Shown here in pieces: positions 1 through 29,000 of a stretch of 64,000 bases of DNA. The stretch comes from Marchantia polymorpha subsp. ruderalis. Its lineage: Eukaryota; Streptophyta; Marchantiopsida; Marchantiales; Marchantiaceae. The DNA lies in contig AP031355.1 in assembly GCA_037833965.1 (NCBI GenBank), forward strand, positions 16,517,501-16,581,500, in the 5' to 3' direction. Both the position numbers and the translations under genes were made by a program. Every line of letters starts with the position of its first letter. Position 1 is the first letter of the stretch. The notes under the pieces were generated by a model. It saw only the letters and a program-made list of their open reading frames with translations. It was not told where the DNA came from and ran no database searches.

Positions 1-121
1 ATAAGGATTTGTCAATTCTGGTCATTCTATCTTGATTGAGAAGCATTTTTCAACAATGCTTCTTGAACCAAAATGTCATCACTCAAATGTTTTTTTTTTT
101 GTTTTCATGCGGTTATTTTGG

Positions 122-4281: not shown

Positions 4282-4656
4282 TCGCCTAAATTACTTAAAT
4301 TTTATGGTGATTAGGCTACTAAGGGAATTAGGATTTGACGTGTGCATGTTATAACCAATGGAGAATGGACACGTATGTAGAGTAGATGGATTTTTAATTT
4401 ATTTTTTATACAATAATATAATATATTTTTTTGAAAAATTTAAAAGAAACTTTCTCTGAAAAAAATATTAATAAACTAAATTAGCCTAAATTAAATTTTC
4501 AAATATTAAATTGGTCTAAATTAACTTTTCAATGTACTAAATTAGTCTAAATGAACTTGGTAAGGAGACTAAATTCGCCTAAATTAATGTTTTTGAATAG
4601 ACTAAACTGATTTTTTCGAATAGACTAAATTATACGTATTTAGCTAATTTAGGCGA
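4282..4656. mobile_element. MITE-like element with TCGCCTAAATTA terminal inverted repeats
   Basis: The 375-bp segment starts with TCGCCTAAATTA and ends with its exact reverse complement TAATTTAGGCGA (4645-4656). The AT-rich interior holds about six degenerate repeats built on CTAAATTAGNCTAAATTAA, so the terminal motif has spread internally. There is no coding capacity, as expected of a non-autonomous element. No clear target-site duplication is visible, so the superfamily cannot be named. An identical copy is at 30241-30615 because it lies inside the large duplication. Confidence 0.6.
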
Positions 4657-7220
4657 GATACTATTATATCCATGCAACTGCGCTGTTCGACGCAGTCTTG
4701 ACGGTTTCTTTAGGCGTTCGTCTGACGGCTCCGTTTGTGCTCTTCAGCTCTGTTGCGTTCGTTCCAATAACTGCCCGGAGAAGAATGGGTGGCTTGCGTC
4801 AGCTATCCCGAAGCACAGCAGAAACATCGGTGACTTCAGTACCCAAGTTTGAGGATTTGCGTTTCCGCACTTCGTTCGCATTCATTCTCAACCATTTGGA
4901 TGATGATCTGAACCAATTCATCTTTTAAATTTTTCACATTTGTAATTCGGCGTTCTTTAGATGATAGATTACGGTCTACTGCCCTCAATTTGAGCATATT
5001 TCACGTCAAATTTAAATAATAATTCCTTCAAATCAACGGATCCTGATGTGTAATTCGCGGTTTTATAACGTGATACATTTAGAATTGACTGCTTTGACTT
5101 TTTCTGTCCGATTCCTCTCACTGTTCTCGGCCTTTAAATTCGTTCCATAAGTTTCGCAATTTTGCCGCAAGGGAAAATCACTATCGAGCAAACAGCTCGG
5201 AAGTTTCCGTGCCTACTACTTTTCGGGAGGAAATTACTTGATGGGACCCGTTGGAAACTCAATCGTCTTGAAAGGACCAAAGAAGTTTGATTTTACCCGC
5301 TGGGACCCCATTAGACGGCCACCGTAAACCATGTTCTTATAACTTACTGATTTGCTCTATAGAGTGGGGAGTGTCCGAAACTGTCGGCCAGGGTATTTTG
5401 GCGAGTCGTTAGCAGCCATGTCTAAGAAACACCATGCACCATTAGTCTGAATTACTCCGGATTTGGTCTTGAGGTGACTTCATCTTTAACTCGAAATAAC
5501 CCCAGATAGCATTGGAGCATCATTGACGGTGGGACTGCAATGGTGTCCCATCGGTAAAATGAAAACTGTTGGGTCCCATAAAGTGTTTTCCTCTACTTTT
5601 CCGCCCAATGGTAAGAAGACTTTGCTGTACAGAGCAGTTGCTGAGTAAACGTCAAAAGTAAAAAGCCTTATCCCTTGGGATAGCTAAGATTTCTCGGCAA
5701 TTAAAACGCCTCAACGTTGTCGACGCTGGCCAACCCTGGCTTGAGGTGGCTATACCAACCAGCGGCCGACTTCCGTCTACTTCTTCACGTCGGCAAATGG
5801 GTTTGCGCTTTCTCCTGAATGTCGTGTCCGCTCCTGATTCGGTTCCATCGAAATATGCTCCTGAGACGGTTTATCGGCAAGCAGCCAGAGAATATTGCCC
5901 AGGAGAGGATTGGGTTGCCACAGCTTCACACATAAGCATGGTTCTACGCACTACACTGAATACCCTGACCAAGTGGCAAGCACCATGACACTAGGTCGCG
6001 CGGACTGTAGGCATTGCACACACTACAAGGGATGCGGGATCACAGCCGTAGCTCTTGTACTGTCCAGCAAAGCGATCTGGTCTACAAGCGTGTCCACATA
6101 CATTTTCCATGGTTCCGTTCAGATGAAATCGTTTCGCAGCTAAGCCATGGACTTTCGAGATTATTTATCGCAGCACGATGACACGCGAACAGTCAAACGT
6201 GTTGTAATCGTTACACCTGTAGCCCATTTCGGCACACAAGTCAACAGAACAGATGTGCATAGACTAAAGATTCTACTCTATAAACGAAAATACAAGGAGC
6301 ACAGATATCGAGCGTTCGAAGTCTCCAAAACAGTGTGGACTCTGAGCAACAGTGTTGCTTTAATTTATATTGCAAAATGAATAGAACAGAGTAAAAGTCA
6401 CTTTTACACGTGAAAAAAATTGGCAGAAGTTGCCGCTATCATAAAAAGGGAAATGAACCACATTGAATCTAAGCCCAAACCATGTTGGAAATAATTACAG
6501 TAGAGGAAATTGAATGGCTTTTATAGATCTCGACCGGGACTACAACGAAACTTAATGAATAAGGGAACTACAGGATCAATATTCTTGCTCATCAGATATG
6601 GAACTCTAAGGCAGCAGTCGAGTTCAAACTATTCTGGCTACTTCAGGATAGAATCTCATTCGCTATCCCCTGTCCACATCAAATCTACAGACAGAGGACG
6701 GCTTACGCCATGTCGATGGAAACAGCTGTAATTGTGGACATTCAGAGTTGAGGGAGGGCGACTATCTCTGGGACCACTTTTTAAATGATATAAATTCGTT
6801 GACAAACTGTACGACTAGCGTCACTTTACTCCACGGAGTGCTGTAGAAGCCAACCAGCTAAACATGCCATTTGTCATGGCAATTTACTCTTTGAGTTGCG
6901 GAGATATCCTGGCAGACCCTCAATCTCCAGTTATGAAAAAAATTGCACCTGCAATTAGACACAAACCTCTTGTATGTCTTGAGCAGATGTTATGTCCTCA
7001 AAGTTCCTGGTAAGGAGGGAATCAAGCCTCAAACCCAAGGGACAAGGAAAATCTCCACCATCATGATTGATCTCCCGTACCTATAAGTACAATGGTGTAG
7101 GCACCTGCGATGAATTTAGAGTACACAAACGGAAGAATGATCTTCGACCATCTTCACTACCTGTAGGTTGCTTACCAGGGGAGCTAATGATTTGGATCCG
7201 AAGCGTACAGACGATGGATG
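4657..7220. other. Non-coding stretch downstream of the U-box/ARM fragment
   Basis: Moderate base composition and several short open frames, none with recognisable homology. The part next to 7221 corresponds to the 3' flank and probable 3' UTR of the minus-strand U-box/ARM gene. The same sequence is at 30616-33179. Confidence 0.6.
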
Positions 7221-8159
7221 CTATTGATTCTCCTTTGCTATGTCCAAGTTTAGCTTCTTCATCTGATCCAGTAATTGAGTTGCCTTCCGCCGAGCCCTCT
7301 GAGTACCAGTTCGAACGAGTTCCGCCAAAGGACCCTGAGCTCCCCGTTTCCAAGCGTCCGCTAGATGGTTCGTATCACTCATACTTAGAGCAAGCAAAAC
7401 TGCGGCAGCGTTTTCCTTGTTTCGTGGTGATCCCGATCTAATCAAGTCAACCAAAATTGGAATGGCAGAAGCACTACCGATCGCCACTCTACCCTCCGGA
7501 TGTGTCGCCAATATCGCCAGTATGGCTAGAGATTCATCGACCATACCCGCATTAGGATCTACTAGCAGTTTCATCAACGGAGGTACGACACCCGCCCTCA
7601 CTGCCTTGGCCTTATTTCCTTGGAAAATTGACAAATTGAACAGAGCAGTGGCGGCGTCCTTCTTTCCTCTTGCAGTACCATCTCGAAGCAGATCTACTAG
7701 AGCTGGAATGGCGCCGGACGCCCCAATAGTCACCTTGTTCTCATCAACAACAGACAAGCTGAACAAAGTAGCTGCGGCATTTTCCCTCGCTTCCATGCTC
7801 CCAGATTTGAGGACATCAACGATGGGATATATCGCCCCGGCCATCACAATAGCTCCCTTGTTGTTGTCATTTATTGACAAGTTCAACAGTGCTGTGACAG
7901 CGTGCTCCTGTGTTCTCAAGTCTGGCGTAGACAAAAGCTTGACAAGCAAAGGGATCGCTCCAGCCTCTGCGATACATATCCGATTCTCCACGTTTCGCTT
8001 AGCAAGCATGCGTAACTCCCCAGCTGCGTTCCGCTGCTCATCCAAACTTCCCGTGGAAAGCTTATTCAGAAGAACCTCCACAGCGGCAGCATCGGGGGAA
8101 ACATCCGCGCAGTTTGCAGCGCTCGAACAATAGAGCAAGCCGCTCAGTGAAGGATTCAT
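7221..8159 (-). pseudogene. Truncated U-box/ARM gene copy: ARM repeats only, with a foreign 5' end
   Basis: This is the last exon of the PUB13/14-type gene at 33180-36073, identical from the stop codon (7221) up to 8113. The U-box and the N-terminal domain are absent. Beyond the breakpoint the frame stays open into the 8114-8556 repeat, which supplies an ATG at 8159 and about 16 unrelated codons ([16 protein letters not shown]) before the ARM part. The open frame is 312 codons. Without a U-box it could not recruit an E2 enzyme; if expressed it would be an ARM-only protein that might compete with the full-length ligase for targets. No promoter is visible, so a dead 3' fragment with a fortuitous fusion is the simpler reading. 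Confidence 0.85.
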
Positions 8160-8556
8160 CTTCGGCCACGACACGAATGGAGAATTTTCGACTCTATCGC
8201 TTTGCAAGATGGGCACCGGCCTAGACTGCTACATAACTTGCCTTCACGATCAACTGCCAAAAATCCTCCTGTTGTCACACGAAATGGACATTGAAGATGT
8301 GCTCGAAACTTCGTCCAGCCTTTGTGAGATGTGCCCTGCTGCTCCAAACTGACCTGCCTTGTTCTAACGCTGTCAATTCCCTTAAGTAGAAGATCTTCTT
8401 GGAGTCTGCGATCAAGCTGTATACAATTTCCCTTAGCCAGTCCATGGCTCCAAAGTCAACCAGAAATCAGTGCGGGACGGTCTTCGACAGGTTCAATCAA
8501 CTTGGAAAGCTGCATCTTGTGCAACTTGCAGGATGAGAGCCGTTGACAATTGGGTA
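8114..8556. repeat. Direct repeat, copy 1 (partner 21927-22385)
   Basis: Starts exactly where the 8.1-kb duplication stops. It aligns with 21927-22385 in the same orientation at roughly 90-95% identity with a few small indels. On the minus strand both copies keep an open frame of about 60 codons (8156-8347 here) with conserved Cys residues, a 6-base in-frame indel and no ATG; it may be an old exon. No function is recognised. Confidence 0.85.
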
Positions 8557-10547
8557 ATCGAGACTTTATTGATAGAATACAGATTTCCGTGATATGAGAG
8601 AAAAAGTTCATAACGTAAATGGTAAACGGTAAATAGATCAAGCCCGTGGGACCCAGAGGGTCAAAAGGCTGAAGAGCACAATACAAACAATCCAACTCCA
8701 ACGTGAAACTGACACCATTCATGACCAGTCTAGAGTCGTCAATGGAGGACAATACTGGGCCAGCTCAGATTTTCGCGTCTACCACACATTTCAGAGTCGA
8801 ACCTTCTCTGGAATTGACTCTGAATTGGCTGGAAATCTTCTTGACACCAGGACGAACTTCTGGCCATGAACTTCCAACGAAGAAAAGCATTTTACATTGC
8901 GACTGGTCTGCCCTGATATCAACAAAGTTTGTCACTTCACAGTCTGACAGCACGTTTTGTAGACTGCATGCTAGAACAACCCCGACCGTATGACTGTGGG
9001 CTGACGGTATACGGTCACCGTCGTGACGGTCTCTCATTTGTTACCGTCGCATCAAGAAGTCACCCGTCGAGCGCTCACTCTCGGGATTCAAATTCGACAC
9101 ATGTACAGCGGATGTGTGACACGTGTCGGAGCGATGGAATAGTGTGCGCGACAAGAGCCTTCGTGCTGGTCCATATTCTTGTATCTTCGGCGAGTATTCT
9201 CATCAGCAGTGTGTTCGACCCAGAGCGAACTATTCTTTCGACTTTATTAAAAAATACCGTGTGCGGGACACGGAAGCGGCTTGTTCAAATTTTGGAATGC
9301 TCCTTCGTTGGAGCACCATCTAACGAAACCAAACAAGGATATCAGAGCTTCTGAGTAGTAAGATTCATGAGTCAACACAGTTCGCGTACAAGTCCGGATT
9401 TGTTCTAAGTGACACTATACAAATTACTTCTGGGAGTTGAGAGACTCAAAATAACCATCGAATGAAACCAAAATTTTAGTATAGAGTTTTGAACACAAAA
9501 TCGGCTAAGGAGCCCAGGCAGCAAAGCGCTGAACACTATGTAATCGTGCTCATCAATGGTACGGGTTGATTTGTGAGACGTGATTTGCAATACACGTTCA
9601 TGTCTAGCCTCGATCACAGGGATGTTGCTTAATCTTCTCATTATTCCGTGAAATCCTCATTAGCAGAGTGACTGCCTTGTCTGTGGAATCGAACCCACCC
9701 TAAACCCTCTAATCGACAAAGGAGCTACGGAGCAGCCAGCGATAAAGTGCTGAGAATCGGAGGTCAGTTAAATAGATGCATTGAACGGCTTCTAAGAATT
9801 TCCTCGAAGCTCTCATCCTATCTTCGTCTTCCGTGAAGATTCTCCCATAAGCACAAAAGAAAGCACAATTGCAGTCACATATTTTGTTTCCGCAACATTG
9901 ACTTCTTCATCAATCGATGCAGCCAAATCACTTAAACCACCTGTTCTGCCGGAGGTTCTAACATTCGACAACAATGACGACATTCGGTGCGCTTTTTAAG
10001 CTTTGCGTTTTATTAAATGTATGTGTACACATCGAAAGATGGACGGAGGCGGGCCAGATCCAAAATCTCTCTCCACCTCTTGCACAAACTTGCCGAAGAG
10101 AAAGAAGCAACCATCTGTACAGAAAGACGGTTTTTTTTTGTTTGACTTCCCGAGATCTCGCCACCTCTGTGAGCTTGGACGGGAGAAAGGTTTGTCTAGG
10201 AAATGCGGACAGGACGTGCTGATCGGATTGCTGGACTGTGAAAGCCATTGGTTGTGCATCGACAGAGAAGGTTTACAGGAGTGTGTGATCCCAACTGATG
10301 TACCAGGCTCTTCAGTATACATAATTTGAAAAAGATAGAGATGTTCATCCTCCACACCGTGAGTTACTGCTCTAAACTTTTTAAAGATTCGAGAGAGGTT
10401 TTCTGTATCCACTATGGCACTTCAAGGGAACCTCTTCTTCAGCACTGCCCACTTCAGTAAATTGCAGTAAGTCACCCATCGCCACTTACTGCAGCAATTA
10501 ATCGATACTGATTTGATTGTAGACATTACGGTTCTTCGGTTGATTGA
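8557..10547. other. Stretch without a recognisable gene; dispersed repeat pieces
   Basis: No supported gene. It contains a 53-bp piece related to 48653-48705 (8628-8680) and, at 8971, a copy of the CTAGAACAACCCCGACCGTA motif also found near the distal ends of both inverted-repeat arms (11741 plus; 20575 minus). Short open frames in all phases show no homology I recognise. Confidence 0.55.
8628..8680. repeat. 53-bp dispersed segment shared with 48653-48705
   Basis: The first 22 bases are identical in both places and about 45 of 53 match overall. On the minus strand both can be read as a similar peptide (PFDPLGPTGLIYLPF here). It could be a fragment of a transposon or of a duplicated exon; neither is established. 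Confidence 0.5.
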
Positions 10548-11953
10548 ACTAAAATGGAGGTCACTAATTACCTTGCAAAAGTCCTGATTATTGCTACAGT
10601 TGGAGGGATTTTTCTACTTTGCATCGTCTTTGGAGCATTCGCAATCGATGGGGACATCTTGTTCACCCACCGGCAGATTTTGGTGGGCGTTTTTCTCATA
10701 ATATTTGGAGCCATCGGCTCTTGTATTATAAGTTGCGTGTGCTGCGTGGGAGTAGACAATACGACGGTGACCTGCGACGTGTACTGCTGTGGCTGGACAG
10801 TTTGATGATTGATTGAGTTTGCAGGCCGTTGTACTCCTTTCTGAAATCTGATTCAGAATGATCCCAGCCCTGAGTGGCGTGGCCAGACACTGAAGAAAGC
10901 CTCTCGCCATGGAGCGGTGATTGACTGCCCCTAAGAAACAGGCGATTCAGCCTCTTGTGCCAAGTTTGCATGTACAGACAAGTAAACAGTCAATTGGTCG
11001 TTGCGACAGTTGCAGAAGAGTTTAATTCTATGATTCCATAGAAACAGCCTTGCTGCTTATTCTCTTTCCTATCAAGTCATCCATACTGATGCAGAGATAT
11101 TCGGTCTTTGAACGTTGGTTTATGTCCAAATGCACAAGACGTCTAAAGGCTCAAGGAATTACATTCTGCACGCTTTTGAATTGCTTAATATGCTACATGT
11201 ATCCTACATGTCATTAGCCGAATTTCGCCCGGTGAACGAACATGATGTGTGAAAATTCCTAAGTTAAAAAAACATCCTATGACAAAATGTAGTCTTGCGG
11301 TATGAGAATCAAGCATGATATTGCTCATCATGCTGTGATTTGGTTCAGTCAGGACTTGACATTCTATGCTACATTTCCTACTTAAACCAGGATGAGTTTA
11401 TGCAATTAGGACATGACATGCCTAAACCTGGACGCCTACCATCAACATTAAAACTCAGGTTATCATTTTCTACGTGATTCGGATCCCCGGATGTCATGGT
11501 CTACACTAGATCCAACTACCCTATTTGCTACCTTGCATCCAGGTTCTAGCTTGAAATGTCTTAGTGCATGTTTATACTGTCTGAAAAACTTTCGGTTCTT
11601 CGGCTTGACCGGCTTGACCCTACTCGTCTGATCTTTCTTCTACCGTATTTGTACGAATACCAAGTCATTTGTCCGAATACAAGACTTTATTACTGCAAAC
11701 AAACGAATCCTACCCAGTATGCCCCTACAAAAGCTCCTCGCTAGAACAACCCCGACCGTATGCTCTCCGGGATGACGGCGTACGTACACCGTTGGTGTTT
11801 CACCGTCACCGTCACCCACGGTTTCGCGTTTCTTCCCAAGAAGAGGCCCTGTCGCCTTTTCGTCCAGCATTTCTTTTTACGCACTCTCTCGGATTGGCGA
11901 TGGCGGATCAGGCTACCTCGGATGGCGATTTGTCGAATGATTTTTCCATTCAA
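10548..11953. repeat. Inverted repeat, arm A (partner 20352-21728)
   Basis: This 1.4-kb segment matches the reverse complement of 20352-21728. The 3' flank of the peptide frame (about 10810-11000) is about 97% identical and the middle about 95%; similarity falls off near the distal end at about 11950. Homology begins a few bases before the peptide start codon, so upstream sequences are unrelated. Arm B has an extra short tandem duplication of GCACAAGACGTCT. The arms are 8.4 kb apart and flank the LINE. Confidence 0.85.
10554..10805 (+). CDS. Small cysteine-rich protein with two predicted membrane segments
   Basis: An 83-residue frame starting at an ATG in good plant context (A at -3, G at +4), with an in-frame stop just upstream, so the start is well placed. 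Two hydrophobic segments, about residues 8-30 and 41-62, are joined by a short polar loop (AIDGDILFTHRQ). A C-terminal tail carries a C-x3-C-x-CC-x8-C-x3-CC pattern. The family is not recognised. A paralogue lies in the opposite inverted-repeat arm (21462-21722, minus). Between the two, nearly all nucleotide differences are amino-acid changing and all cysteines are retained, while the downstream non-coding flank is almost identical. That pattern suggests a real, fast-evolving protein, perhaps membrane-anchored with a disulphide-bonded tail. Function, expression and possible further exons are unknown. Confidence 0.55.
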   Translation: MEVTNYLAKVLIIATVGGIFLLCIVFGAFAIDGDILFTHRQILVGVFLIIFGAIGSCIISCVCCVGVDNTTVTCDVYCCGWTV

Positions 11954-12504
11954 GCTGATGATTTATGATTGTCAGGACATTTGCGTTTGTATGGGGCCAG
12001 GGTTTTTTCTGTCGTCGCGGCTGTGAGATAATTGGCGGGGTTTCAAATTTTGCTTGGTTTCCTTCTTCCTCCCAGGGTTTTCTAAAAGCTCGATGTCAGC
12101 CTTGCTCTCCGTTTCTCTCCCCGTCCCTTCCCATCACTGAACCTTGCATGCTGTTTTTCTCTTCCGTCTGGGCTGTTCTCCTCGTCTTCCTCTATCCCAG
12201 CACGACATAAGCTTCGCATGTAAATACCTCCTTTTTCCTGCTATGGCTTTCGGAATCGTCTACCCGGAAGGTTTTCAGAAAAGGAACCCTATCTTGAATT
12301 GATTTTTACCGTTATGATCAAGGATTTTCGATGATAAAGCATACAAATCGGGAGGGGTCGTCCTAGATCCCGGTGGCATGATGTCGTCCTTGATGCCAGC
12401 AGGTTACTATCCATACAGAGGTGCGTATAGAACCTTCATGTTGCAGGTACTGGTTCCAGCTCGGTTCCCTGGAAAATTCGATTTCCATATCTGCTGGGAC
12501 ATAA

Positions 12505-12702
12505 GCAATATCGATCCGAATAGGCAAATCCGCCAACGTGGGCTACCTGCTGCGAGAAGGACTGCAACTCATACTTGGACGAAGTGCGAGCTATTTTCAA
12601 TACCGATCTAGTCCGGGCTTGCCATTTCTACCTATCGACACCGGAGACGAAGAAATCAAGAAGTCTGAGCGGCTACTCAATTATGCAAACCCACAAGGCC
12701 TG
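12505..12702 (+). other. Possible orphan exon ending at a GTAAGT donor
   Basis: One frame is open for 65 codons from 12505 (for example GYLLREGLQLILGRSASYF in the middle). It reaches a perfect-looking donor, CCT|GTAAGT, at 12701/12702, and a stop follows at once if unspliced. The bases from 12701 onward are shared with 23843 onward, while the exon-like part is not, so the repeat boundary coincides with the donor. No downstream exon was found and no family is recognised. It may be the remnant of a gene broken by the rearrangements. An ATG at 11900 in arm A (MADQATSDGDLSNDF) could be an earlier exon of the same lost gene, which is speculative. Confidence 0.25.
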
Positions 12703-13864
12703 TAAGTATGTCACGGATGAGCTGATTCGGGTCAACGGGAAATGCTGGGAACCACAACTACCGTAGAAACGTATGATAGGAAGAACACACAAGAACTCGA
12801 AGACAATATTCCTTGATTGTAAATGTTTGTCATTGGAACCTAACACTCAGCTTTAGAACAGATAGGAAGGATCCAATATCAGATGACATCAGGTCAGAGT
12901 TGACAAGTCAAAGGTCATAGTTGGAAAGATAGGGACAGCTAGCATTCCGTTAGTTATTTAACATATCATCATCTTCACCATTTACATGTCATTTAGGTGC
13001 CAATACTTAAATAATATTTTTTAAGCATTTGTGTAATTTATCATCACGACAAATAAATTCGAAATAGATTCGAAATAGAGATCATAACTATATCTACTTT
13101 GGAATTTAAGAAATATGAAACAATTTTCAATAGTCTATTTTATTAATCACAAAAAATAGGTTCAAACTTTGATGTGTTATTATGTTTTTTATTATAAAAT
13201 TATTATTATTTTATTAAAATTAATTTTTCAACTAAATATAAATAATATTGAATCAATTCTTACACGATATTTTTATTTTTAATTATATTTAGCTCAAATT
13301 TTGTATTTTTATCATGGTTGAGTTCAAAAGTTCATACTTATGTACTTGAGAAACCATTTTAACCTTTAGAAAAATGCTTTCATAGTAAAAAATTTGATTT
13401 TATTTATATGTTAAAGAAAACCGGAGGGTGTTACTTCTTTATTCAGATGCATCCAAATTTTATCATATGATGGAAATGATATAATCTTATTTTTTATTTA
13501 TCGACATTGAAAATAAAAATATTTTTGTAAAATTTTCACTTGTAAATTTGATGCTATCACTTTGTCACAAAACTTGTATTCTATTTGACCACAGCATACA
13601 CTCCAAAAACATGAATAAATCAACTATGATGAATACTGTAATTGGTGAATGAATTTTAAATATAAAAATATGACCATTCAAATAGTTGACAATAGTTGAG
13701 TCTAGAGATGATCCTGATGTTTAATCTTTAGCATGTGCTATTTGAAAAAAATATAATTTAGTGTCAAAATTATCATACACCTAACTTCTGGCAAATAAAT
13801 GGAATGATAGACATCACTATAGGCATTGGTGACTTGTCTAATTTACACAGTAATTAACACTTTA
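12701..13864. repeat. AT-rich direct repeat, copy 1 (partner 23843-24990)
   Basis: Aligns with 23843-24990 in the same orientation at roughly 90% identity with many small indels, typical of ageing non-coding DNA. No gene is visible. Similarity stops at AACACTTTA; here LINE sequence follows directly, in the partner unrelated sequence does. So the LINE insertion or a deletion postdates the duplication. Confidence 0.85.
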
Positions 13865-13935
13865 CACAAGGCGCACTACACACCTTACACCATGCCACTC
13901 GGAACATTGATTGAACCTTCAGCAACAACAAAGAC

Positions 13936-14840
13936 ATGCACAACACTTCCAACGATGCCGAATCACAAGACCAAGACGAAAGCAAGCGCAGTCCGAACAA
14001 ACAACTCCTTGACATGATGGCTTTATTCAGCCAAGTCACTCTCAACATCTCCACAGAGCAGGCCTACGAAAGACGAGTCAAAAAAAGAGATACTAGAGCG
14101 GTAATTTTCTTTCTCAACCGTTGCCTTAGCTTGACTCAAGTGCAAGAATGGTTTGACGGAGAACTCAAACGCAACAGGAGACTCAGCATCACTACGGTCA
14201 CTTCCATAAGAAGCAAGAATTTTCATGTCAAGTTCGTAGAGAAGCCGGACAAAGACAAGGCACTAACCACCACCCACCTCAAATACTTGAGGCAGTAGTT
14301 CATTGTCATACCTTGGTTTGAGGCTACGGACGACTACGAGTATGTTCCCCAAAAGTATCTAGTTTGGGTTCACTTTCCAAAACTCATATCATGTCATATA
14401 CAATGGCTACAAGAAATAACAGCTACTCTTGGCACTGTCCTCATCCCACCCAAGAGAATAGGCCCTTGTTCAAGGCATGCGTGGAGTGAACTCATGGCTC
14501 TTCAATCCCAACTAATGTGCATGTCACAATAGAGTACTCTATTGCTCAGATTCTTATCAAAATAACACATCTTCCTAACTCGTGTATTCGATGTAGACAT
14601 CAAGGTCATCAAGCAGTGCAATGTCAAGGTGACACGTTCTTCACATCAACACGAGGAGGAGAAAAGAAACAAGGCACCGTCACCCGAACCGCACACAACA
14701 CAAAGAACACACAAGCCAGGAGGCGAGCTCAAACACAAACTGTCCAAACCGGCCACAACAAGGAAATTCACTCCTTGGAAACTTGCGAAACACCACATGA
14801 AAAGAAAAGAAAAGTCATAACACCTTTCATGAAGTCGTAG
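13936..14840 (+). pseudogene. LINE ORF1 remnant with CCHC zinc knuckle
   Basis: The frame is open from 13936 to a stop at 14298, and similar-looking coding continues in broken frames to about 14840. The middle part (VWVHFPKL and a following Gly/Leu-rich stretch) resembles the RNA-binding ORF1 region of plant LINEs. A clear zinc knuckle, CIRCRHQGHQAVQC (C-x2-C-x4-H-x4-C), lies at about 14583-14624, followed by a basic tail. In an intact element this protein would coat the element's RNA. Several stops make it non-functional here. Confidence 0.75.
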
Positions 14841-15100
14841 AAGTCAAGGACAAAGAAGACAACAGATGAACAAGGAACAAAATCCATTTCCATAGGGAAA
14901 AGGAAGTCAATGGTATTCAATTCAGAGTTGAGTTTCAATGCACAAAAAATCACAGAGTCTACTACACAGATTGATGGATCTGAACACCACACACGCTCTA
15001 AAGCTAAAGACACATGCGAGAAGAAAAACATCAAGCGCAACCAGACGGCCTTTAGTGAGATATAAATCACACATCTACTTCACTATTACTTCTCACACTG

Positions 15101-18100
15101 AATATAGTTTCCTGGAATGTGGGAGATCTAAATGGAAACACCATGAAGTATAAGGTTAGAGATTTCTATCTAATGAGCCAAAATAGGCCGGATATCATGG
15201 CAATACAAGAGCACAAACTATATACCTTTGCTATGACGGCAATATAATACTTACTCAATATACACTTTACGTGTTTATGTTCTCCATGATAGATGGGAGC
15301 TAGAGGAGGAAGTAAAGATGGAACACCGTTACTTATTGACAAAAGCTTCATTGTTACACACTCGAGCAAAACTCATGATGGCTTCAGCGTATGGTCTCAA
15401 CTTTCCAAACAAGGTCATGAATTTCTTGTGGTCTCTATCTATGGTCCTCACACTCCAAGCGAGAGAGCTGCCCTCTGTAATTGACTTCAAAACTTGTTTA
15501 CTCACATCCATGTTCTTTTATGCGGAGACTGGAATATGGTGAAACTACCTTAAGATTCCTCAAGAGGCAAGCAAGTACTCACTGGAGCGGAAGGGACCGC
15601 GTTCTCACATTTTTGCAAAAAACATAACCTGATGTATCTTCGACTGATGGCAGCCGAGGCAAGGGGATCCACTCACACCAGATGAAATCCAGATCGATAA
15701 GCACCCAGATGGTCTAGAATATATCAATTCTATGTGTCACATGGAGGAAAATGGCTAACTGGTGCACAACATGTACTACATCATGCGGGCAACACGCTCT
15801 CTGATCACATACCAATCTCTATGGTCCTAGATTTGGCACTTTTCAATCCACCGACAATAGAATTGCACTATGAGGTCCCACAACCTTCAAATGGAGTACT
15901 ACACTTCTCACCAAAGATGGAATCCAGGCATGAATACATAAAATTTGGAAAAATTACATCATAGACAGGATGATCCCAGACAGACATACTACAAAGGGAT
16001 GCAGCAAGTTCGAAAATAATTACAGGCCAAGCAAAGAGAGCACTAGAACCGAATATCACTCATTGACATCTTCCAACAGTAAATCACACACTTACACCAG
16101 ACAACACCTAAAAACCTGACCACAACCCAACTCTCGCGCCTCAACTGGCTCGTAACTGAGAAGCGGATCTGCGAACACGAAAGGGATGTGGAGATATGTT
16201 TGTGGTCCAAGGTGAAGCACCTAACACTTGGAAACGCGCCCAGTAAATACTTTTTCAACATTCATCAACAAAATTCTGCAAGAGTTCAAATTTTGCACCT
16301 GAGGTTAGACGATGATGTAGAAACACGAGAGCAAGCTCAGATACTTTGCAAGGTAGGACAATATTACTCTAATCTTTATAGTCTAGAAGAGAAAACACAT
16401 GATGACCAGATCCTACATCAACAATTGATAATTAGATACAATGAAATATTCCTGACGCCAGAAGAGCAATGCTAGCTGCCACACCAACACTCCAAGAAGC
16501 TGAAGACGTACTTTTTTCGCTACCAAAGAACAAAGCGCCGAGAGTTGACGGAGTGTCAACAGAAGCAATGCAAAAAATTTGGCCTCTTATGAAACACTTC
16601 TACATCAGAATGTTAGAGAAGCTCTAGACAAACTTTGTACTAGCCAAAATTGTAACTGAGGATATGATTATACTCATTCCAAAGTTAGTCAACAAAACGG
16701 AGCTCAAAGATTGGAGACCTCTGACAATGTTCAACACGGATTACAAGATAATTGCCAAATTGTTGGCAAGTAGACTTCAAATTTTGCTAGCAACATTGGT
16801 GCTTTCTCAATAGACTGGTTTCGTCAAGGATCGTAACATATTGGACAATGTGATGAACCTCTGGATGGCACAGGATGCTGCCAAAACCTGTGACTAGGGT
16901 TTGTCCTACACCTATACATGTATAATAAATTATACACTTTATATATGTATAATTTGTATAATGAAATGCATTATACATGTATACTTCCAAACATGGAAGG
17001 TTGATTTTCCTAGCCAAACAGCCAGATGCCTAGAGCATGACTAATGCTCTAGGCATCTAGTCTAGATCAAAAAAGGCAGAAGGTCTTGTAGTGTTGTATG
17101 CAAATGTTAGACTGCGTGAAAACGAAGGAAATATGGTGGGAGTCATGACTGGAGAAGAGATTGACCATAATGTAGATGCTTCTGAAGAATAAAATGAACA
17201 GGTATAAAGTTTTTTTGGACAATGTATAATATACTTATACTATACATGTATAATTTGTATGTTCTGTACAATGAAATGGATTATACATGTATACTTCCGA
17301 ACCCTACCTGTGACAGTAGAGGTATGTTTGTAATACTAGATTTTGAAAAATCTTATGATAGAATGTATCATTCTTATCTGTGGGACACAATGACAAACTA
17401 CGGTCTGGGAGAGCATTTTGTTAGATTTGAAAAAGTACTCATCCAAGCCGCTTCAGCGGCAGTTCACCTAAATGGCTCCAAGACCTTTAGATTTCCAATA
17501 GCAAGAGGAGTACGTCAAGAATGTCCACATGTCACTCTGTTGTTTGCCCTCGTCATTGAGCCGTTGATGACGCAATTCAAACATAACTTTCAATTCGGCA
17601 AACTTCGTGGATTTAAAGTAGGGGAGAACGTTTTCCTAGACAATTCATTGTTTGCCGACGACATGAGTGTTTTTTTGATGGCTCGCAAACTTCGTTTGCC
17701 GAATTACGTTAGGTCCTAGCAAAATATGAAACAAGCAGTGGAGCACCTCTAAACTTGGCTAAATCTTCCATTCTGCTCCTTGATTTGGATAGACCATCAG
17801 ATTGGATACAAACTACAAGGTGCAGGTTGATGGAAACATGAATAATCAACAAAAACCCGGGAGCACCTATAATACTCGGAGTATCAACATTCAGCAGGGA
17901 GAAATTCTGCACGCAGCAGCTGGTTAGTACACTTGGAGGTTGTCATTCAAAACTTTGCTCATTTGAATCACGTATTAACTTTCTACAATGTGCACTACAA
18001 GCCCAACCTACGTTTTACATTTCTCTCATGCGGTTGTCTGCCCTTACCTGTAAAAAAATATAACAACTCTACATGCAATTTGTTTGGGGTTACAGCACGG

Positions 18101-19060
18101 AAGGAGAAGCAAAACTATCACTCATCTGATGGAAGATGTTTACGAGATCAAAGGCACAAGGAGGTTTAGAAATTAGAAGCATAACTGATTCCAACACTTA
18201 CTTCATGGAAAACTGGATCGGTTGTGCATTACATGAGTTAGTTCATTGCAATCGTAGTAAATGTTCCAAAAACCTACTACGAGGTCACTATAGTCTATCA
18301 GATTTGACACTTACGGATCAGTCATTGCACCTCTCGGAAAATGAAGTATGAGCAACGTTACACAGCTGATGGCAGCAAATAAAGAAAGACTTTTTTTGGG
18401 ATCCACAAGACGTCTTCATCCCGGACATCCTCATCCTCAAGGATGTAGTCAACTTGATTTTGCAACAACATAATTCAACATAAGCACTCACGAAGTTGGT
18501 GATGGTAGAATTGAGAAAATTCAATATCATTCAAGTAGCAGAACCATGAAAAAGAAGAAAATACTTAGAGTTGCATACATTCAAGATGAACAAGAAACAC
18601 ATCATCAAGACTCGCATCCAGTTCAACTCTTTCGGCGCAGATTTCTCACGTCCAAGGGCCCATGCAGCTGCATACTCACATCAAGTGAGGGATGGAGTCT
18701 AAGGGAAAAATCCGTAGCATGTAGTTTCACTAAAGCAGAAAAAGAATGGTTTAGAGGAAAGTCACAGAACATGCCAACCGCTCAAATTCTCAACCAAAAA
18801 TGAGGCACCTTCAAGTTTGAGTAAGAGTGGAACACGTTCTTTCATCAACTCTGGAAAACCCACAATGTAAACAGGGATAAAATTTTTAGGAGGAAGATAC
18901 TCCAGCAAGGATTCTACACCAACGACGTAGTGCATAAAATCAGACCTGGAAACGGATGCTGCCCAAGAGGATGCACCTCTCCTAAGACGGTCCAACACAT
19001 CTTTGATTGTCCCTTTGCTTATAAGGTCTGGTCGGCTATAGCACAACTAAGGTGTTGTAT
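15101..19060 (+). pseudogene. LINE ORF2 remnant: endonuclease, reverse transcriptase, zf-RVT
   Basis: The endonuclease begins with NIVSWNVGDLNG (15101) and includes the catalytic-type glutamate context IMAIQEHKL, the block YGPHTPSER (about 15450), CGDWNMV (about 15525) and the hallmark SDHIP (about 15800). The reverse transcriptase begins near 16520 (KNKAPRVDGV), continues through DWRPLTMFN and LDFEKSYDR, and reaches the catalytic FADDM at 17651. A zf-RVT-like region with C, C, H and C spacing (CCPRGC, then TVQHIFDC) is at about 18950-19020. Stops, for example TAG near 16811, and frame changes occur throughout. In a live element this protein nicks target DNA and copies the element RNA into the site. 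Confidence 0.85.
16895..17306. mobile_element. hAT-like MITE inserted in the LINE reverse transcriptase
   Basis: A 412-bp insertion flanked by an 8-bp direct repeat CCTGTGAC (16887-16894 and 17307-17314). It starts TAGGGTTTG and ends CGAACCCTA, near-perfect terminal inverted repeats. The 8-bp duplication and TAGGG ends are typical of hAT elements. Across the insertion the LINE frame resumes in the same reading phase (Cys-Asp, then LDFEKSYDR), confirming the exact boundaries. Inside, a roughly 45-bp segment with TATACATGTATACTTCC occurs near both ends, and a perfect 15-bp stem, 5-base loop hairpin lies at 17024-17058. No transposase is encoded, so it was moved by an enzyme made elsewhere. Confidence 0.85.
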
Positions 19061-19725
19061 CCAACACAAATAAATATCTTCAAGACGGCTACATCATTGA
19101 TACATCTCCTCGAACTCAACATGCAAAACCAACATAGTACTCATTCTACAGCTCTATGGATGTTAACTACACATGTATGCAGACATCTATGGCTTAGTAG
19201 AAATCATTTCCTGTATGAGTAAGAAATAGTGCTAGTAAGTCTTTATACTAGGGTTAGGAATACTATAAACAATGCTTAAAACTGCAATATTGTTACAGAA
19301 CACGCTAGGTAGTGCAGTGCACACAAGGTTAGAACGGTGGCTAACAAAGAAACTAGACAAATTATATGTACCAACGAAATGTTCGGAAGCACTCCACACG
19401 ACAGGAGCAGCGAATGGATTGGACACAATACAGCACTCTCACATGAGAGGGACAAATCAAGCTTGAATTACAATTTCAACAATGTCACGGTCAAACTGTG
19501 ACAGGTTGTGGACCTGAGCATTGTACATTTTTTAAATGATATACTCATTGGTTGGCGTACGCACGGCCGTCGGCGCGTTTTTGCTGTCCTGCAGAGGTCT
19601 ACTTTGGTCTCTGGTATGATGACTAAAATGTTTGTACTCTGACTCCCTGTTTGTGACAGTTTGTTTTTTCTTCTTAGCGTGTGGCGCATAAAACAAGAAT
19701 CCTTGCAGTTTTCTATAGTTTCAAT

Positions 19726-20301
19726 CATTTGGCTAGTTCACTCTTCCCACTTAACATATGCGGTCCAATTTTAATTTAAGGAAGGATTACTCCTAAATTT
19801 AAGCCACCAAAAGTTTGTCCAAAACATTAAACTCAATGCACATACTATTTATCCAACACGTAATACAACACCATCTTTCCTACACAATCATGTAGGGATA
19901 TTACTCTGTTCTAGTATCAACCACGAATCCACTTACTACATGAAATTTTCTCTCATCATTTTCCATCATCATTTTCCACTTTCTCTTTTATACTTTTGCA
20001 ACCTGATGACCTTGTTATTCTTGTGTTGTCACAAACAGTCTCCACCAGTAAGCTGTGCTAATAATCCACTGTCTTTCCATCCCATTTCATCATCTTACAA
20101 TTGTTACAGGAAATTGTTGTTGTGCTTACTCTTTCTTGCCTTGTACCTTCCACTATGTTTTTATCCATCTTGTTTATTCAAAATAAGGATTTGTCAATTC
20201 TGGTCATTCTATCTTGATTGAGAAGCAATTTTCAACCATGCTTCTTGAACCAAAACGTCATCACTAAAAAAAAAAATTTAATTTTCATGCGGTTATTTTG
20301 G
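19726..20301. repeat. Direct repeat, copy A (partner 25515-26080)
   Basis: Matches 25515-26080 in the same orientation at about 94-95% identity. The last part (from about 20183) also matches bases 1-121. After the shared CATGCGGTTATTTTGG the copies separate: this one runs into inverted-repeat arm B, the other into the 8.1-kb duplicated segment. No coding content is supported. Confidence 0.85.
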
Positions 20302-20351
20302 AACTCCTCGCCCCTACAAACTCGAATGCTCTGGCAATCACAACGCATAAC

Positions 20352-21728
20352 CTTGAATGCAAGAAATCGCTCGCCGAATTGAAAACTCCGAGTTGCTTGA
20401 TCCGCCATCGCTAAAGCGAGAGTGCATCAAAAGAAAAGAAATGCTAGACAAAAAGTTCGGCTGGTCTAGTATTGGTCGCGAAACGCGAAACCATATGGTG
20501 GTGATCGTGAAGGTGACAATCTAACGGTTTACGTATGCAGTCAGCCCGGAGAGCATACGGTGGGGGTTGTTCTAGCCAAAAGCGTAATAAAGCCTTGTAT
20601 TCGGACAAATGACTTGGTAATCGTACAAATACGGTAGAAGTAAGATCATACGAGTAGGGTCAGGCTGGTCATGCCGAAGAACCGAAAGTAAAAACATGCA
20701 CTAAGACATTTCAAGCTAGAACCTGGATGCAAGGTAGCAAATAGAGTGTTTGGATCTAGTGTAGGCCATGACATCCGGGGGATCCGAATCACGTAGAAAA
20801 CGATAAACTAAGTTTTAATGTTGATGGTAGGCGTCCAGGTTTAGGCATGTTATGTCCTAATTGCATAAACTCATCGTGGTTCAAGTAGGAAATGTAGCAC
20901 AGAAAGTGAAGTCCTGACTGAACCAAATCACAGCATGATGAGCAATATCATGCTTGATTCTCATACCGCAAGACTACATTTTGTCATAGGATGTTTATTC
21001 AACTTAGGTATTTTCACACATAATGTTCGTTCACCGTGCGAAATTCGGCTAATGACATGTAGGATACATGTATCATATTTAGCAAATCAAAAGCGTGCAG
21101 AATGTAATTCCTTGAGCCTTTAGACGTCTTGTGCAGACGTCTTGTGCATTAGGACATAAACCAACGTTCAAAGACCGAATATCTTTGCATCAGTATGGAT
21201 GACTTGATAGGAAGGAGAATAACCAGCGAGGCTGTTTTTATGGAATCATGGAATTAAACTCTTCTGCATTTGTCGCAATGACCAATTGACTGTTTACTTG
21301 TCTGTACATGCAAACTTGGCACAAGAGGCTGAATCGCCTGTTTCTTAGGGGCAGTCAATCACCGCTCCCCGGCGAGAGGCTTTCTTCAGTGTCTGGCCAC
21401 GCCACTCAGGGCCGGGACCTTCTGAATCAGATTTCAGAAAGGAGTACAACGGCCTGCAAACTCAATCAAGATCAAATGACAAGAAACAGCAGCTCACGTT
21501 GCAGTGTACCTGAAAACTTCCTACTCCCATGCAGCACTTGCAAGTTACCATGCAAAAGCCGAAGGCTCCAAATATTATGAGAAAAACGCCCACCACAATT
21601 TCCCGGTGGGTGAACACGATGTCCCCATCGATTGCGAATGCTCCAAAGACGATGCAAAGTAGAAAAACCACTCCAATTGTAGCAAAAATCAGGACTTTTG
21701 CATAGACATTAGTGACCTCCCTTTTAGT
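20352..21728. repeat. Inverted repeat, arm B (partner 10548-11953)
   Basis: Reverse-complement match to arm A. On the minus strand it carries the paralogue of the small cysteine-rich frame, then the conserved 3' flank, and at its distal end the CTAGAACAACC motif and the ATGGCGGATCA segment also seen in arm A. Beyond 21728 the two arms have unrelated sequence. Confidence 0.85.
21462..21722 (-). CDS. Paralogue of the small cysteine-rich two-membrane-segment protein, ATG replaced by AGG
   Basis: The frame is open over the whole region aligned to the 83-residue protein at 10554-10805 and ends a few codons later (tail FLSFDLD). Membrane segments, the AIDGDI-FTHR loop and the C-x3-C-x-CC-x8-C-x3-CC pattern are all conserved. 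The codon matching the partner's start is AGG (21722-21720). The frame stays open for more than a dozen codons upstream without an ATG, so translation would need an upstream spliced exon or a non-ATG start; otherwise this is a pseudogene. Against simple decay stand the lack of any stop or frameshift and the retention of every cysteine. The substitution pattern is described under findings. Confidence 0.45.
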   Translation of the reverse strand, partial: REVTNVYAKVLIFATIGVVFLLCIVFGAFAIDGDIVFTHREIVVGVFLIIFGAFGFCMVTCKCCMGVGSFQVHCNVSCCFLSFDLD

Positions 21729-21926
21729 AAGCTTGCTGACCAACCTTCGGACAGATTTCCTTTCAACCAGCTGCAGCTCGAGCGCTCAAAGCTTGAGTTC
21801 TGAGAGCAGTCAGTAGACAGGTCATACAACATAAGACTGGACCCTAATCATCAAATTCCATTCTTAGAAGTCCGCCTTCTCCACTTGCAAATTGCATATA
21901 GTATACACCCCCTCTATTCGACGAAT

Positions 21927-22385
21927 CTGCAGCGCTCGAACATTAGAGCAAGCCGCTCTGTGAAGGATTCATCTTCGGCCACGACACGAATGGAGAATTT
22001 TCGCCTCTATCGCTTTGCAAGATGGGCACCGGCCTAGACTGCAACATAACTTGCCTTCACGATCAACTGCCAAAAAACCTCCTGTTGTCACACGAAATGG
22101 ACATTTAACATGTCCTCGAAACTTCGTCCAGCCTTTGTGGCCCTGCTGTTGCAAGCTGCGTTAGAACAAGGCAGGTGCCTTGTTCTAACGCTGTCAATTC
22201 CCTTAAGTAGAAGATCTTCTTAAGGTGTGGGAGTCTGCGATCAAGTTCTATACAATTTCCCTTAGCCTGTCCATGGCTCGAAAGTCAACCAGAAATCAGT
22301 GCGGGACGGTCTTTGACAGGTTCAATCAACGCGGAAAGCTGCATTTTCTGCAACTTGCAGGATGAGAGCCGTTGACAATTGGGTA
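21927..22385. repeat. Direct repeat, copy 2 (partner 8114-8556)
   Basis: Same orientation as 8114-8556. It lacks the U-box/ARM sequence on its left, so it shows what the 8114 repeat looked like before it was joined to the truncated gene. Here the frame that supplies the foreign N-terminus of the 7221-8159 fusion has a stop. The minus-strand frame of about 60 codons (21969-22154) remains open. Confidence 0.85.
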
Positions 22386-23842
22386 CAAGCTCAGAGTCCG
22401 AAGCCCTTTCGACTAGGGCTTAATCCTTCTACTGTACGTCTTGAAGTACGGATTGCACATGCCCGATGCAGAGCGTAATGCAGAGCCAAGCAATTCATCC
22501 GGAGATCCAGTCTTGACCGAGGGATCATCTCTAGTTTCTACTCTCACCATGCTCCATTCCACTTCTCACTGCTTGTTTCTCGTAACGTGATCGCGCCATT
22601 TGAGGCCGCCTTACGGCACAGGTAGCCGCCGCTTATACGATGAAATGTGAATTTCTGCAGGGAATTTTTCAACGGATCCACGATCCTTATGCCTCACGAA
22701 GCTGGCATTTGGAAAGGCAATTTGAGATGGACGTCCAATTACTGCGGTTGTAGAAGGACATGTCATGGAATCTTACGTAAGAATATCATTACGATGATGA
22801 GGGTTAGTATTCTCAGTACCGTTACGAATGTGGGCTCACGTAGTAACTTAACATGCCGTGGAATTTCATGTCCTTGCATGTTCCTGATGATGAAACTTGA
22901 TATTAGACTTCAAAGCTAAAGGTATTATAACAAGTGATGGACGTGAGATCATCCGATATATTTTCTTTTGTCGATGCTTTCCTGATATTTACATCTCATA
23001 GAAGTCATGGGACATAGAATCAGTAGCAAGATCGAGATTTCAGAGGTTTCTAACCCCGGGAGAAATGACATTCTCGAATAGTCACCCGTCTGATATAATA
23101 TCTGCTTATTCAGCAGCATTGACTGAAAAGGCAGAGGAGTATAATGCGGCTTTTGGCTCACACAGAGGCGTGTAAATTGCTGCGAAAGATCTCCTACGAA
23201 CGGGAGTGACTTGAACAATGTGACTGCCTTAGCAGCACGTAAGAGTGCATCCTACACATGGCTTGGGATGAACTAGGACGCGTTTCCACATACTGTGGCT
23301 TAGCCAATCATGAAACACTTCTTGCAACACTTCTCGTATCTTCAATCAGGTTCGGATATTGACGAAAAATGAAACATGACGCAAGATGGCACGACAAAGG
23401 GCAAAACTCTAAGGATGAATGACAAACGAAACGCAGAAAACTCGGCTTGACTCAGAACCGATTGAATTCAGTTGACTGACCTCAGGGTCAAGCACAGGCA
23501 GCCAATCTCTCGCCTTCCTCGGAATCGTCTGTCATCTTACACCTGAAGTCCAGTGCCCTCGGGATGTAGATATCATGATGTGTCGGTAATAAAGCGAATC
23601 TTTAGGAGCAAAAATTGAGCAGACCTTCATTTCCGGCTCAATCGAAGGCAACTTTACGACATACAGTCGAAACTGGAAGTTATAGTTCAAAAGTTCTGGA
23701 AAAATAATTTAAGGATATTAGCATCTGAAATGCATCTAGTTAAAGATTCTTCGTAAATCTTCCAAATTTTTACTACAGTGAAGAAAGCAACCTGTCTGAT
23801 CTTCTTGACATGGAACCCTTTCCATGTCAAGAAGTAATTCCA
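22386..23842. other. Stretch without a recognisable gene
   Basis: Single-copy sequence within this window, with mixed composition. Open frames are under 100 codons and unrecognised. A small palindromic patch (CATGGAACCCTTTCCATG) lies at about 23809-23826, just before the repeat that starts at 23843. Confidence 0.55.
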
Positions 23843-25514: not shown

Positions 25515-26080
25515 CATTTGGCCAGTCCGCTCTCCCCACTTAACATATGCGGTCCAATTTTTTATTTAAGGAAGGATTACTCCTAAATTTAAGCCACCAA
25601 AAGTTTGTCCACAACATCAAACTCAGTGCACATATTATCTATCCAACACGTGGTACAAGACCATCTTTCCTACACAGTCATGTAGGGATATTACTCTGTT
25701 CTAGTATCAACCTAGAATCCACTTACTACATGAAATTTTCTCTCATCATTTTCCACTTTCTCTTTTATCCTTCTGCAACCTGATGACCGTGTTATTCTTG
25801 TGTTGCCACAAACAATCTCCACCAGTAAGCTGTGCTAATAATCCACTGTCTTTCCGTCCCATTTCCTCATCTTACATTTGTTACAGGAAATTGTTGTTGT
25901 GCTTACTCTTTCTTGCCTTGTACGTTTTACTATGTTTTTATCAATCTTGTTTACTCAAAATAAGGATTTGTCAATTCTGGTCATTCTATCTTGATTGAGA
26001 AGCATTTTTCAACAATGCTTCTTGAACCAAAATGTCATCACTCAAATGTTTTTTTTTTTGTTTTCATGCGGTTATTTTGG
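25515..26080. repeat. Direct repeat, copy B (partner 19726-20301)
   Basis: From 25960 on this is also the start of the 8.1-kb duplication as seen in the window, so the left copy of that duplication probably carries this repeat upstream of base 1. Confidence 0.85.
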
Positions 26081-29000
26081 CCCCCTGAATTTGTGTCTCT
26101 ATCTCGTGTGCTTCTAGTGTGCTCCCTTGGAACGGTCCGATCGAGCATGATAGCTTTGAAACTCAAATCTCCTCATCCAAGTGACACGGTGATGTTGTCT
26201 CTTATCTACTTCATTCTTAGCTGTATGCTGCTACTCTGAAACCTCAAATCTCCCTTCATTGTCACCTTTTAGTTCTAAACTGTTGGGTGAATTGGATGAC
26301 TTTGTATTCGCCTTGCGCTATTGTTGCTTTGGCGGTGGAATTTCTCGAATTTCGTTGTGATCTTTGCTAGGACCAAGTAGTTGTTCATGATCAACCATAT
26401 AAATTGAACAATATATCTCAATGACATATTTTAGCGCGCTGCCTCCACCATCAGCATTATTCAGAATTTTAAAAGTTGGTGGTATTTTTAACTTTTATCA
26501 ATACTCTGGTAAAACATAGCCACAAATGCATAAGAACTGGACCCGGAGAGGATAACAGAGCAGCTCCTAGCTTCAATGATTACTTTGCATATCCTTCATA
26601 CTTTGGTGCAACATTGTTCGATACTATCCCATTGATGTTTTCATTCTACTGTGACACGGTCATAAGTAGGAGAGCAAAAACCAAATACTTGCTTATAATA
26701 AGTGTTTTTTCTTCAACAAATATTTTTATATTTTATTGGATGCTATCAGAAAACATCTCTCGCGTCCATAACTAAATAAATTTACCTTGGTCTTGTCCTT
26801 TTTTCTACTCTAGCATCTACATGTCTGCAAACACACATGTAGATGTAATGAAGAGAGGCCAGACAAACCCCAGCGGCAAGAGGAAGTCATCTGCCGAGCG
26901 AATTCTTCCAGCCTTACGACTGACGATTCCTTCGCACAGAGTCGTGTGGTGGCAGCCTTGAACTCATGTACACCCTTCTTCAAACGTTTGCACCCAAATC
27001 TGAGCCAATTTTATAGTATGTTCCCACACGTTATTTCCTTTCTTATGAAAACCCTTGCCTTGCTAGATGATCTCGTGCATTCGATGCCAAGAGCATGGGC
27101 CAGAGGCAAGGGGAGTAGGTTCTGCAACACGTTCAGTGCAATATTTATCAATTTCTCCCTCCTCTTCGTTGGCAACATGGACAAATTCAGATGTGAACCA
27201 GGGTGGAAGGGCTAATAGATTGAGAAGTTCCAACATGTTGATACAGTTGTCACCGTAAGCGTTGAAGGAAAACGCGTTCCCATTATTGGGTCATAATGAG
27301 AGGATTACACTATCTGACTTTTTGAATCCACCCACGCTATCAAAGTGGATTAGATCAACAGCTTTCCGTTCATGCTATTTATTTCTTATTCCTTCTCGAT
27401 ACGTCATTAGCCCGTGTCGGGTCACGCGGGAGTCCAGTGCTTGGGCGTGACAATTTCCAGATCTGCGCGAAGGAGAACGATTCTCGTCCAGTCGAATCGG
27501 ATTCAAATTTCTATTTCTATAACGATGTAGCAAGCCAATTTAAGCAAACTCCGTATGTCTTATTTAACAAGACTTTCATTCGGTTGTACCTGCCTCCGCT
27601 TGTTCCACAACCTTGTGTCATTTGCTGCTGGGATTGGAAAACAAGTCTTTCCGTCCTTCCCCAGTCTCTCAGAAATATTCAATAAAGTCCATGTTTTATC
27701 TAATTCTTCATTCTAATGCAGCACATTAACTAATAAAGTCACGAGATTTTTTGGTTATCTGAAATTTTTTGAAGTTGCATTCGTGTTTGTTTGGCCCACC
27801 TTCACATAAATATCTACCCACTCTTCCCATGTACTTAATCCCTCTCGCCGCATCAGCCCAAAAGTGATTTATGTGTGAAGACCACCTTTGGGGTTATTCT
27901 CGTTTGGGTTTACTTCCTATGATTTGTTGGAATCTCATCATGAAAACATGTTCCAATCTGATTACCCTAACTCTAATACAGCCTCTTACACAATATGTAA
28001 TATCCCCCATTTCATAATCTTAGAAGAGTTTTCTCTAAATTATGAACTGGAGGTCAAAATTAGAATCTGACTAATTGATAATCAAAATTATCTTATTAAT
28101 AAGTGTCCAATTCCGAACAAGTCTTCACTCTCTAACAAAATTCTTCAGATTTGATTTCTTTCATTGAAAGATTTTCAGTTGGCTACGCATGAAAAACACA
28201 AACTACACAACTATGTATAACTTGTGTTTCAAAAATTTAAAGGGCTAAAAGCCTTAAAGCTACGCGGAGGATATATGAGCTGAAAGATGAAGATGATGTT
28301 GGTGAAACATGGTGTAGTTGGCTAGAAGTATCACAACTCACTGGATAGAAATATTACAACTCATAAGCGTAATTGGACTGTCAACAAATCATAAGTACAT
28401 GTTGTTTCTATCCAGAAAAGCATCAAGAAACACATGCAATAGCTTAGATTTATAATGGCTCTAAAATCTTATTGTGCGTCTAAAGGCTTGCCAATGATGT
28501 TGATGATTGTTAGGTTTATTTTACCTCAAATAAATTTGAAGATTAGAGCATATGTAGCTAACTTAACCTCTAATGGTAATATTCTGTGTATACCTTAATT
28601 ACAAGGTATGAAGTAACTCAACAAGGTATTGTAACCATTACTTTCTTCATATATTATTTGATTCTGTCGCATCGGTAGAAAATAACTTCTTCATTCTGAT
28701 TTTGGCATTGTAATGCAAATTTGTGGAACAACATTTTCATACCATCAAACGCTTGAATATGAACTTGTTTTGATGATGCCTAAAGAGTAAATCTAATATT
28801 TGCAATTATCTTTATACATCATTCTTGAAGTTTGAAAACTAAATTTACACAAGAATAACTTGCTTGATATGCACAAAAAAATTCGATTGGAGATAAATAT
28901 AGTTAAGGAATGGATGCGCAAGTCTTTAATTATGTTAATTATGTTAATTATGAAGTCCTGAAAAGGAGGAATCTGAATTATGATTAACACATATTGAGTA

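Follow-up and report, generated by a model that had tools for sequence, protein, structure and literature searches.

The stretch analyzed here, referred to as the window, is 64,000 nucleotides of Marchantia polymorpha subsp. ruderalis DNA (assembly GCA_037833965.1, contig AP031355.1, C6:16517501-16581500) and contains two diverged copies, A and B, of a gene for a short cysteine-rich protein with predicted membrane stretches. Diversifying selection after duplication is the account of their divergence that we favor, with moderate confidence. A and B would be members of a small family of short membrane proteins, predicted to form a two-helix hairpin followed by a Cys-rich tail; after duplication, the A and B lineages would have come under diversifying selection, mostly in the tail between fixed cysteines, and the lineage of a further copy, C, would have stayed conservative. 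Like recognition or defense peptides, the tail is probably in contact with a changing partner. That recognition or defense role is suggested by analogy, and the membrane topology, expression, partner, and role of the family are what we infer from the sequences. The two copies in the window are as follows.

10554 to 10805, plus strand: copy A, an intact frame at 10554-10802 plus stop, 83 codons, with two hydrophobic stretches by hydropathy and, C-terminally, a Cys-rich tail.
21462 to 21722, minus strand: copy B, an open frame at 21722-21465 plus stop, 86 codons, homologous to A and with AGG as its first codon.
20306 to 21728, minus strand: the part of B that aligns with A 10548-12001 (84.75% with gaps).

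An earlier note, made from the letters of the window, had placed both frames correctly and had counted about 35 base differences between them, only two of them silent. The exact count was 40 base differences over 82 aligned codons, falling 19, 15, and 6 on the first, second, and third codon positions, which by the Nei-Gojobori method comprise 36 replacement and 4 silent differences; the two wholly silent codons that it named, Cys (57) and Val (72), were confirmed. Its observations that all cysteines are kept (8 of 8 positions) and that the second copy has no ATG also held, and the absence of an indel or stop was true up to codon 82. Beyond this point, a 2-base indel shifts the end of A against B and C, and the region after codon 82 was therefore excluded. 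An overlapping reading frame was rejected as the cause of this pattern, since the five other frames all contain stops in A, A-star (a further copy described below), B, and C and since changes fall mostly on codon positions 1 and 2, with few at position 3; in copy D, four of the five other frames contain stops and the third forward frame is open.

The note had proposed a search for paralogues. This search was run in one genome of 241,466,482 bases in 9 contigs, and whole-genome DNA and protein searches placed the close family at seven places, A, A', A-star, B, B', C, and D, none with an inner stop in any copy. The five outside the window are as follows.

C6:16461613, minus strand: A-star, 99% like A, with an ATG and an uninterrupted frame.
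C6:31306207, minus strand: C, 92%, with an ATG, an uninterrupted frame, and a 6-base in-frame deletion.
C6:16407087, minus strand: D, 81% over 385 of 647 bases, with an ATG three codons further out and an uninterrupted frame.
C6:16502095: A', with a frame identical to that of A.
C6:16513261: B', with a frame identical to that of B.

Because their frames are identical to those of A and B, A' and B' were left out of all counts, and the codon gaps of D and C were placed by hand. Two strong hydrophobic stretches were found by hydropathy in A, B, C, and D, and codon 1, AGG in B, is ATG in A, A-star, C, and D. Nei-Gojobori counts over at most 82 codons gave 20 replacement and 1 silent difference for A-C, 22 and 3 for B-C, and 1 and 1 for A versus A-star; the differences per codon position were 13, 6, and 2 for A-C and 10, 11, and 4 for B-C. 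Pairs with D had 34 to 42 replacement and 13 to 15.5 silent differences, with a dN/dS of 0.76 to 0.85 (kappa 1).

The DNA around the frames provided a neutral yardstick. At least 1.2 kb of upstream DNA is common to A-star, B, C, and D but not to A; because the DNA upstream of A is different, A and B have no common adjacent 5' flank. Upstream differences were 66/1210 for A-star/B, 68/1215 for A-star/C, and 69/1220 for B/C (5.5 to 5.7% over 1.2 kb), with 9.3 to 10.3% for pairs with D. Downstream differences were 50/876 for A/B, 62/881 for A/C, and 44/871 for B/C, with 19 to 23 of 145 for pairs with D. The figure of about 3% previously given for the 3' flank of A and B was reproduced in the first 150 columns (4/149, 2.7%), although the full 0.9 kb or so shows that this was a low stretch.

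Replacement and silent changes were compared with this flank in a joint codon-plus-flank likelihood, in which alpha is the silent rate and beta the replacement rate, both relative to the flank; the start codon was excluded, and the downstream flank was cut at column 890, the last columns aligning poorly. For A, A-star, B, and C, alpha was 0.75, beta was 2.94, and omega was 3.9 (p 0.0011), and a parametric bootstrap under omega = 1 reached this result in 0 of 100 replicates. The silent sites of these four copies are thus no older than the flank (p = 0.52 for alpha). Omega was 4.9 (p 0.0098) for A, A-star, and C and 3.6 (p 0.023) for B and C alone. With all five copies, alpha was 1.57 (p 0.097) and beta 2.75 (p 8e-11). 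Branch rates relative to the flank were 3.6 for A, 5.2 for B, and 0.44 for C, and a common rate was rejected (p 0.0012), so that the replacement excess is confined to the A and B lineages and is not found in C.

The excess was also unevenly distributed along the protein. The parts compared, a split chosen after seeing the data, are as follows.

10554 to 10606, plus strand: N-terminal part of A, roughly codons 1-18, which varies from copy to copy.
10608 to 10712, plus strand: core of A, codons 19-53, the predicted end of the first helix, loop, and start of the second helix.
10713 to 10799, plus strand: tail of A, codons 54-82, the fastest part (28/87 differences for A-star versus B).
21477 to 21563, minus strand: tail of B, codons 54-82.

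Without D, beta was 6.3 in the tail, 2.65 in N-terminal codons 2-18, and 0.92 in the core, where divergence among A-star, B, and C was 3 to 5%, as in the flank. Tail alpha was 2.1, which is not significant (p = 0.22). Among 87-base flank windows, which overlap one another, the divergence of the tail was reached in 0/1883 for A-star/B, 0/1893 for A-star/C, 0/1888 for B/C, 0/1164 for A-star/D, 0/1172 for B/D, and 19/1174 for C/D. Between A and B, 17 of 29 tail residues were changed but none of the 7 cysteines (p 0.0005); the corresponding values were 11/27 residues and 0/6 cysteines for A-C (p 0.027) and 10/27 and 0/6 for B-C (p 0.042). Over the whole protein, the sparing of cysteines was below 0.05 for A-B only (0.038).

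A published study (PMC10336034) states that ignoring multi-nucleotide changes biases such selection tests toward false positives. In a model with double and triple changes, using codon data only and leaving out D, omega was 3.7 (p 0.008), and 2 of 428 simulations under the multi-nucleotide null reached the observed value for A, A-star, B, and C. When adjacent differences were merged, A-B retained 24 replacement and 2 silent events, 2.2 times the flank (p 0.0005), B-C retained 17 and 2 (1.74 times, p 0.027), and C-D retained 25 and 3 (1.34 times, p 0.14). Merging differences within 2 bases reduced the 40 A-B differences (39 without the start codon) to 20 events, 1.82 times the flank (p 0.018); this ratio was 1.72 for B-C (p 0.045), 1.25 for A-C (p 0.42), and 1.24 to 1.53 for pairs with D (p 0.05 to 0.37). 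The signal from the combined set of A, A-star, B, and C therefore withstands multi-nucleotide changes, whereas that from some other sets does not.

Several results weigh against selection as the explanation. The earlier note had suggested diversifying selection and a dN/dS test with the flank as control; the added paralogues and the flank control support the suggestion in the four-copy test above, but the outcome depends on the copies and the model. Adding D raises the silent rate, with an omega of 1.75 (p 0.039) for all five copies, and the multi-nucleotide model reduces this to 1.49 (p 0.24). With D but without B, omega was 1.48 (p 0.2). Without both B and D, the multi-nucleotide model gave an omega of 3.8, with p 0.06 from codons only and 0.049 jointly, and merging adjacent differences left A-C with 16 replacement and 0 silent events, only 1.29 times the flank (p 0.36). 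Pairs with D change three cysteine positions each, without sparing (tail p 0.09 to 0.44). There are only four distinct lineages, and the p values come from many model variants and are uncorrected for multiple tests. Finally, B has no ATG, and the DNA upstream of A is a dispersed repeat, as detailed in the following features.

10526 to 11731, plus strand: the 99% match of A to A-star, which begins 28 bases upstream of the ATG and ends at +1178.
8970 to 10526, plus strand: dispersed repeat directly upstream of A; these ends are those of the query, and the repeat may reach further.
8113 to 8962, minus strand: inverted pieces of the family neighborhood, matching A-star -223..-666 (99.8%) and +1578..+1170 (97.8%).
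21723 to 23073, minus strand: native upstream DNA of B, about 1.35 kb, which A-star, C, and D also have and A lacks.

The homology of A with A-star thus begins only 28 bases before the ATG of A. The genome has at least 68 matches to the repeat, a count made when 40 of 297 first-look candidates had been scored; among the matches listed, 12 span nearly the whole query, A and A' included, and copies match at 91 to 94% over nearly that whole length. Both window copies therefore look compromised, B by the lack of an ATG and A by the replacement of its native upstream DNA, and would record past selection more than a working pair; the working genes are likely to be A-star, C, and D.

The family genes lie in a segmental-duplication cluster spanning about 130 kb; C is a further copy on that contig, located about 140 kb from its end. 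A deletion of about 2.06 kb has removed the frame from a B-like copy at C6:16488126 (98% like B). With copies that are start-less, repeat-fronted, or frame-deleted, the cluster both makes and breaks family members. A locus at C6:2.85 Mb (L039/L047) resembles the neighborhood of D (73 to 80%) without the roughly 2.5 kb that hold the gene, through either an older deletion there or an insertion in the lineage of D; by eye, no target-site duplication was evident.

The state of these copies bears on a rival explanation that we consider rather unlikely, namely that decaying copies, released from constraint, acquired a few complex mutations in the tail and that the excess is a statistical by-product of multi-nucleotide mutation. 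The missing ATG of B and the lost native upstream DNA of A are consistent with decay, the differences are clustered (halving to 20 events for A-B and leaving A-C at 1.25 times the flank), and the five-copy multi-nucleotide test was not significant. However, relaxed constraint by itself cannot bring the rate above neutral, and the silent sites match the flank; the multi-nucleotide model retains a significant omega for A, A-star, B, and C; and the excess is also present in A and A-star, both of which have an ATG and an open frame. The concentration of divergence in one stretch, within a cluster full of rearrangements, could instead point to recombination or gene conversion with a lost or unassembled paralogue that replaced the tails of A or B, which we regard as improbable. 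D, with a pairwise coding dS of 0.27 to 0.33 against a flank divergence of about 0.10, does suggest a mixed history, and its coding part is possibly older or mixed, though alpha was not significantly above 1 in the likelihood. Against replacement of the tails, genome searches with them found known copies only, at three places for the tail of B and four for that of A, and protein searches with B and D gave no further close copy in this genome; an old donor should also have brought silent changes, and tail alpha without D was not significantly raised. The recombination with a third paralogue that the earlier note had offered as a competing explanation is therefore not favored, no donor having been found in this one genome.

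Its other competing explanation, that gene conversion homogenized the flanks only and the coding part merely looks fast, we find barely credible. Flank divergence is indeed low and even among A-star, B, and C, but flank-only conversion predicts old silent sites. Within the frames of A, A-star, B, and C, the silent sites are no older than the flank, and this explanation is therefore disfavored; the core of the frame likewise diverges at a flank-like level. Diversifying selection thus remains our preferred reading.

Relatives of the family were sought by sequence and profile. A matched C5:24055779 at E 0.7 and B at E 1.1, and the C5 locus was not among the matches listed for the D protein. At this position (C5:24.05 Mb) there is a gene pair (L021, L022), two loci 6 kb apart whose proteins are 64% identical and which are under purifying selection (dS 1.48, dN 0.30). 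A profile of A, C, B, and D matched that of the C5 pair at an hhalign probability of 90% over 39 columns (four versus two sequences), so that the core profile is shared at the superfamily level. The C5 proteins resemble the family in having two hydrophobic stretches and the core F-G-x-F-A ... F-x-x-R-x-x-x-G-x-x-L, but they differ in their purifying selection, their N- and C-terminal parts, and the weakness of the single-sequence matches. Weaker C5-type pieces, several with stops, were observed on C3, C9, C8, C7, C6, and C4 (L023-L028, L030), and some of the broken pieces have similar flanking translations, as if a repeat had carried a gene fragment about.

In Pfam scans of A, C, and D, no family was assigned to A (E up to 0.1) or to C (E up to 10), and D matched only PRA1, at E 0.19, below its cutoff. 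Searching PDB sequences with C yielded two matches, both at chance level (E 1 and 1.3). Plant secreted Cys-rich recognition and defense peptides, such as defensins and S-locus pollen peptides, are short, duplicated, and show fixed cysteines and omega above 1. The family shares this pattern, with replacements between fixed cysteines, but has two hydrophobic stretches by hydropathy rather than a signal peptide and mature peptide, and A and C have no Pfam match. CYSTM-type proteins are small and cysteine-rich, with Cys next to one membrane stretch; the family is similarly small with Cys adjoining a membrane stretch, but it has two hydrophobic stretches rather than one, and no CYSTM match was found in the Pfam scans of A, C, and D. 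Among the papers listed by a few term searches, none named this peptide family, which is not proof of its absence from print. A further, speculative proposal, which we think doubtful as a whole, is that these are undescribed membrane-anchored, cysteine-framed recognition peptides whose tail diversifies recurrently, derived from a conserved two-helix gene and arising from a make-and-break segmental-duplication cluster that would break its members through start-codon loss, repeat capture of the upstream DNA, and gene deletion.

The window also contains other features. It was observed that 1-8113 equals 25960-34072 at 100%, a tandem duplication whose period is 25,959 bases. A comparison of 19,901 bases on the left side of the window, the stretch that contains A' and B', with the corresponding copy inside it showed 1 difference; the duplication is either very recent or an assembly artifact. 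Its junction (8113/34072) interrupts a plant-type U-box/ARM gene, leaving an ARM-only frame at 7221-8216 and ARM and U-box pieces at 33180-34833 (minus strand). Inside the duplicated unit, the frame at 17222-17719 (plus strand) encodes a reverse-transcriptase domain (Pfam RVT_1, E 2.4e-7). Elsewhere in the window, 48770-51483 is a degenerate tandem array whose units are about 222 bases long.

The further copies changed the reading of a two-copy comparison, and since both of the compared copies look compromised today, A-star, C, and D are the copies on which the test should now be made. If the selection is current, the family would mark an interface that changes fast, whether with microbes, mates, or a partner protein, and the conservative C would offer a natural comparison with the accelerated A and B against one and the same neutral flank. 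Past selection would still leave a case in which a gene of a length unsuited to ordinary tests can be measured against its flanking DNA as a neutral yardstick.

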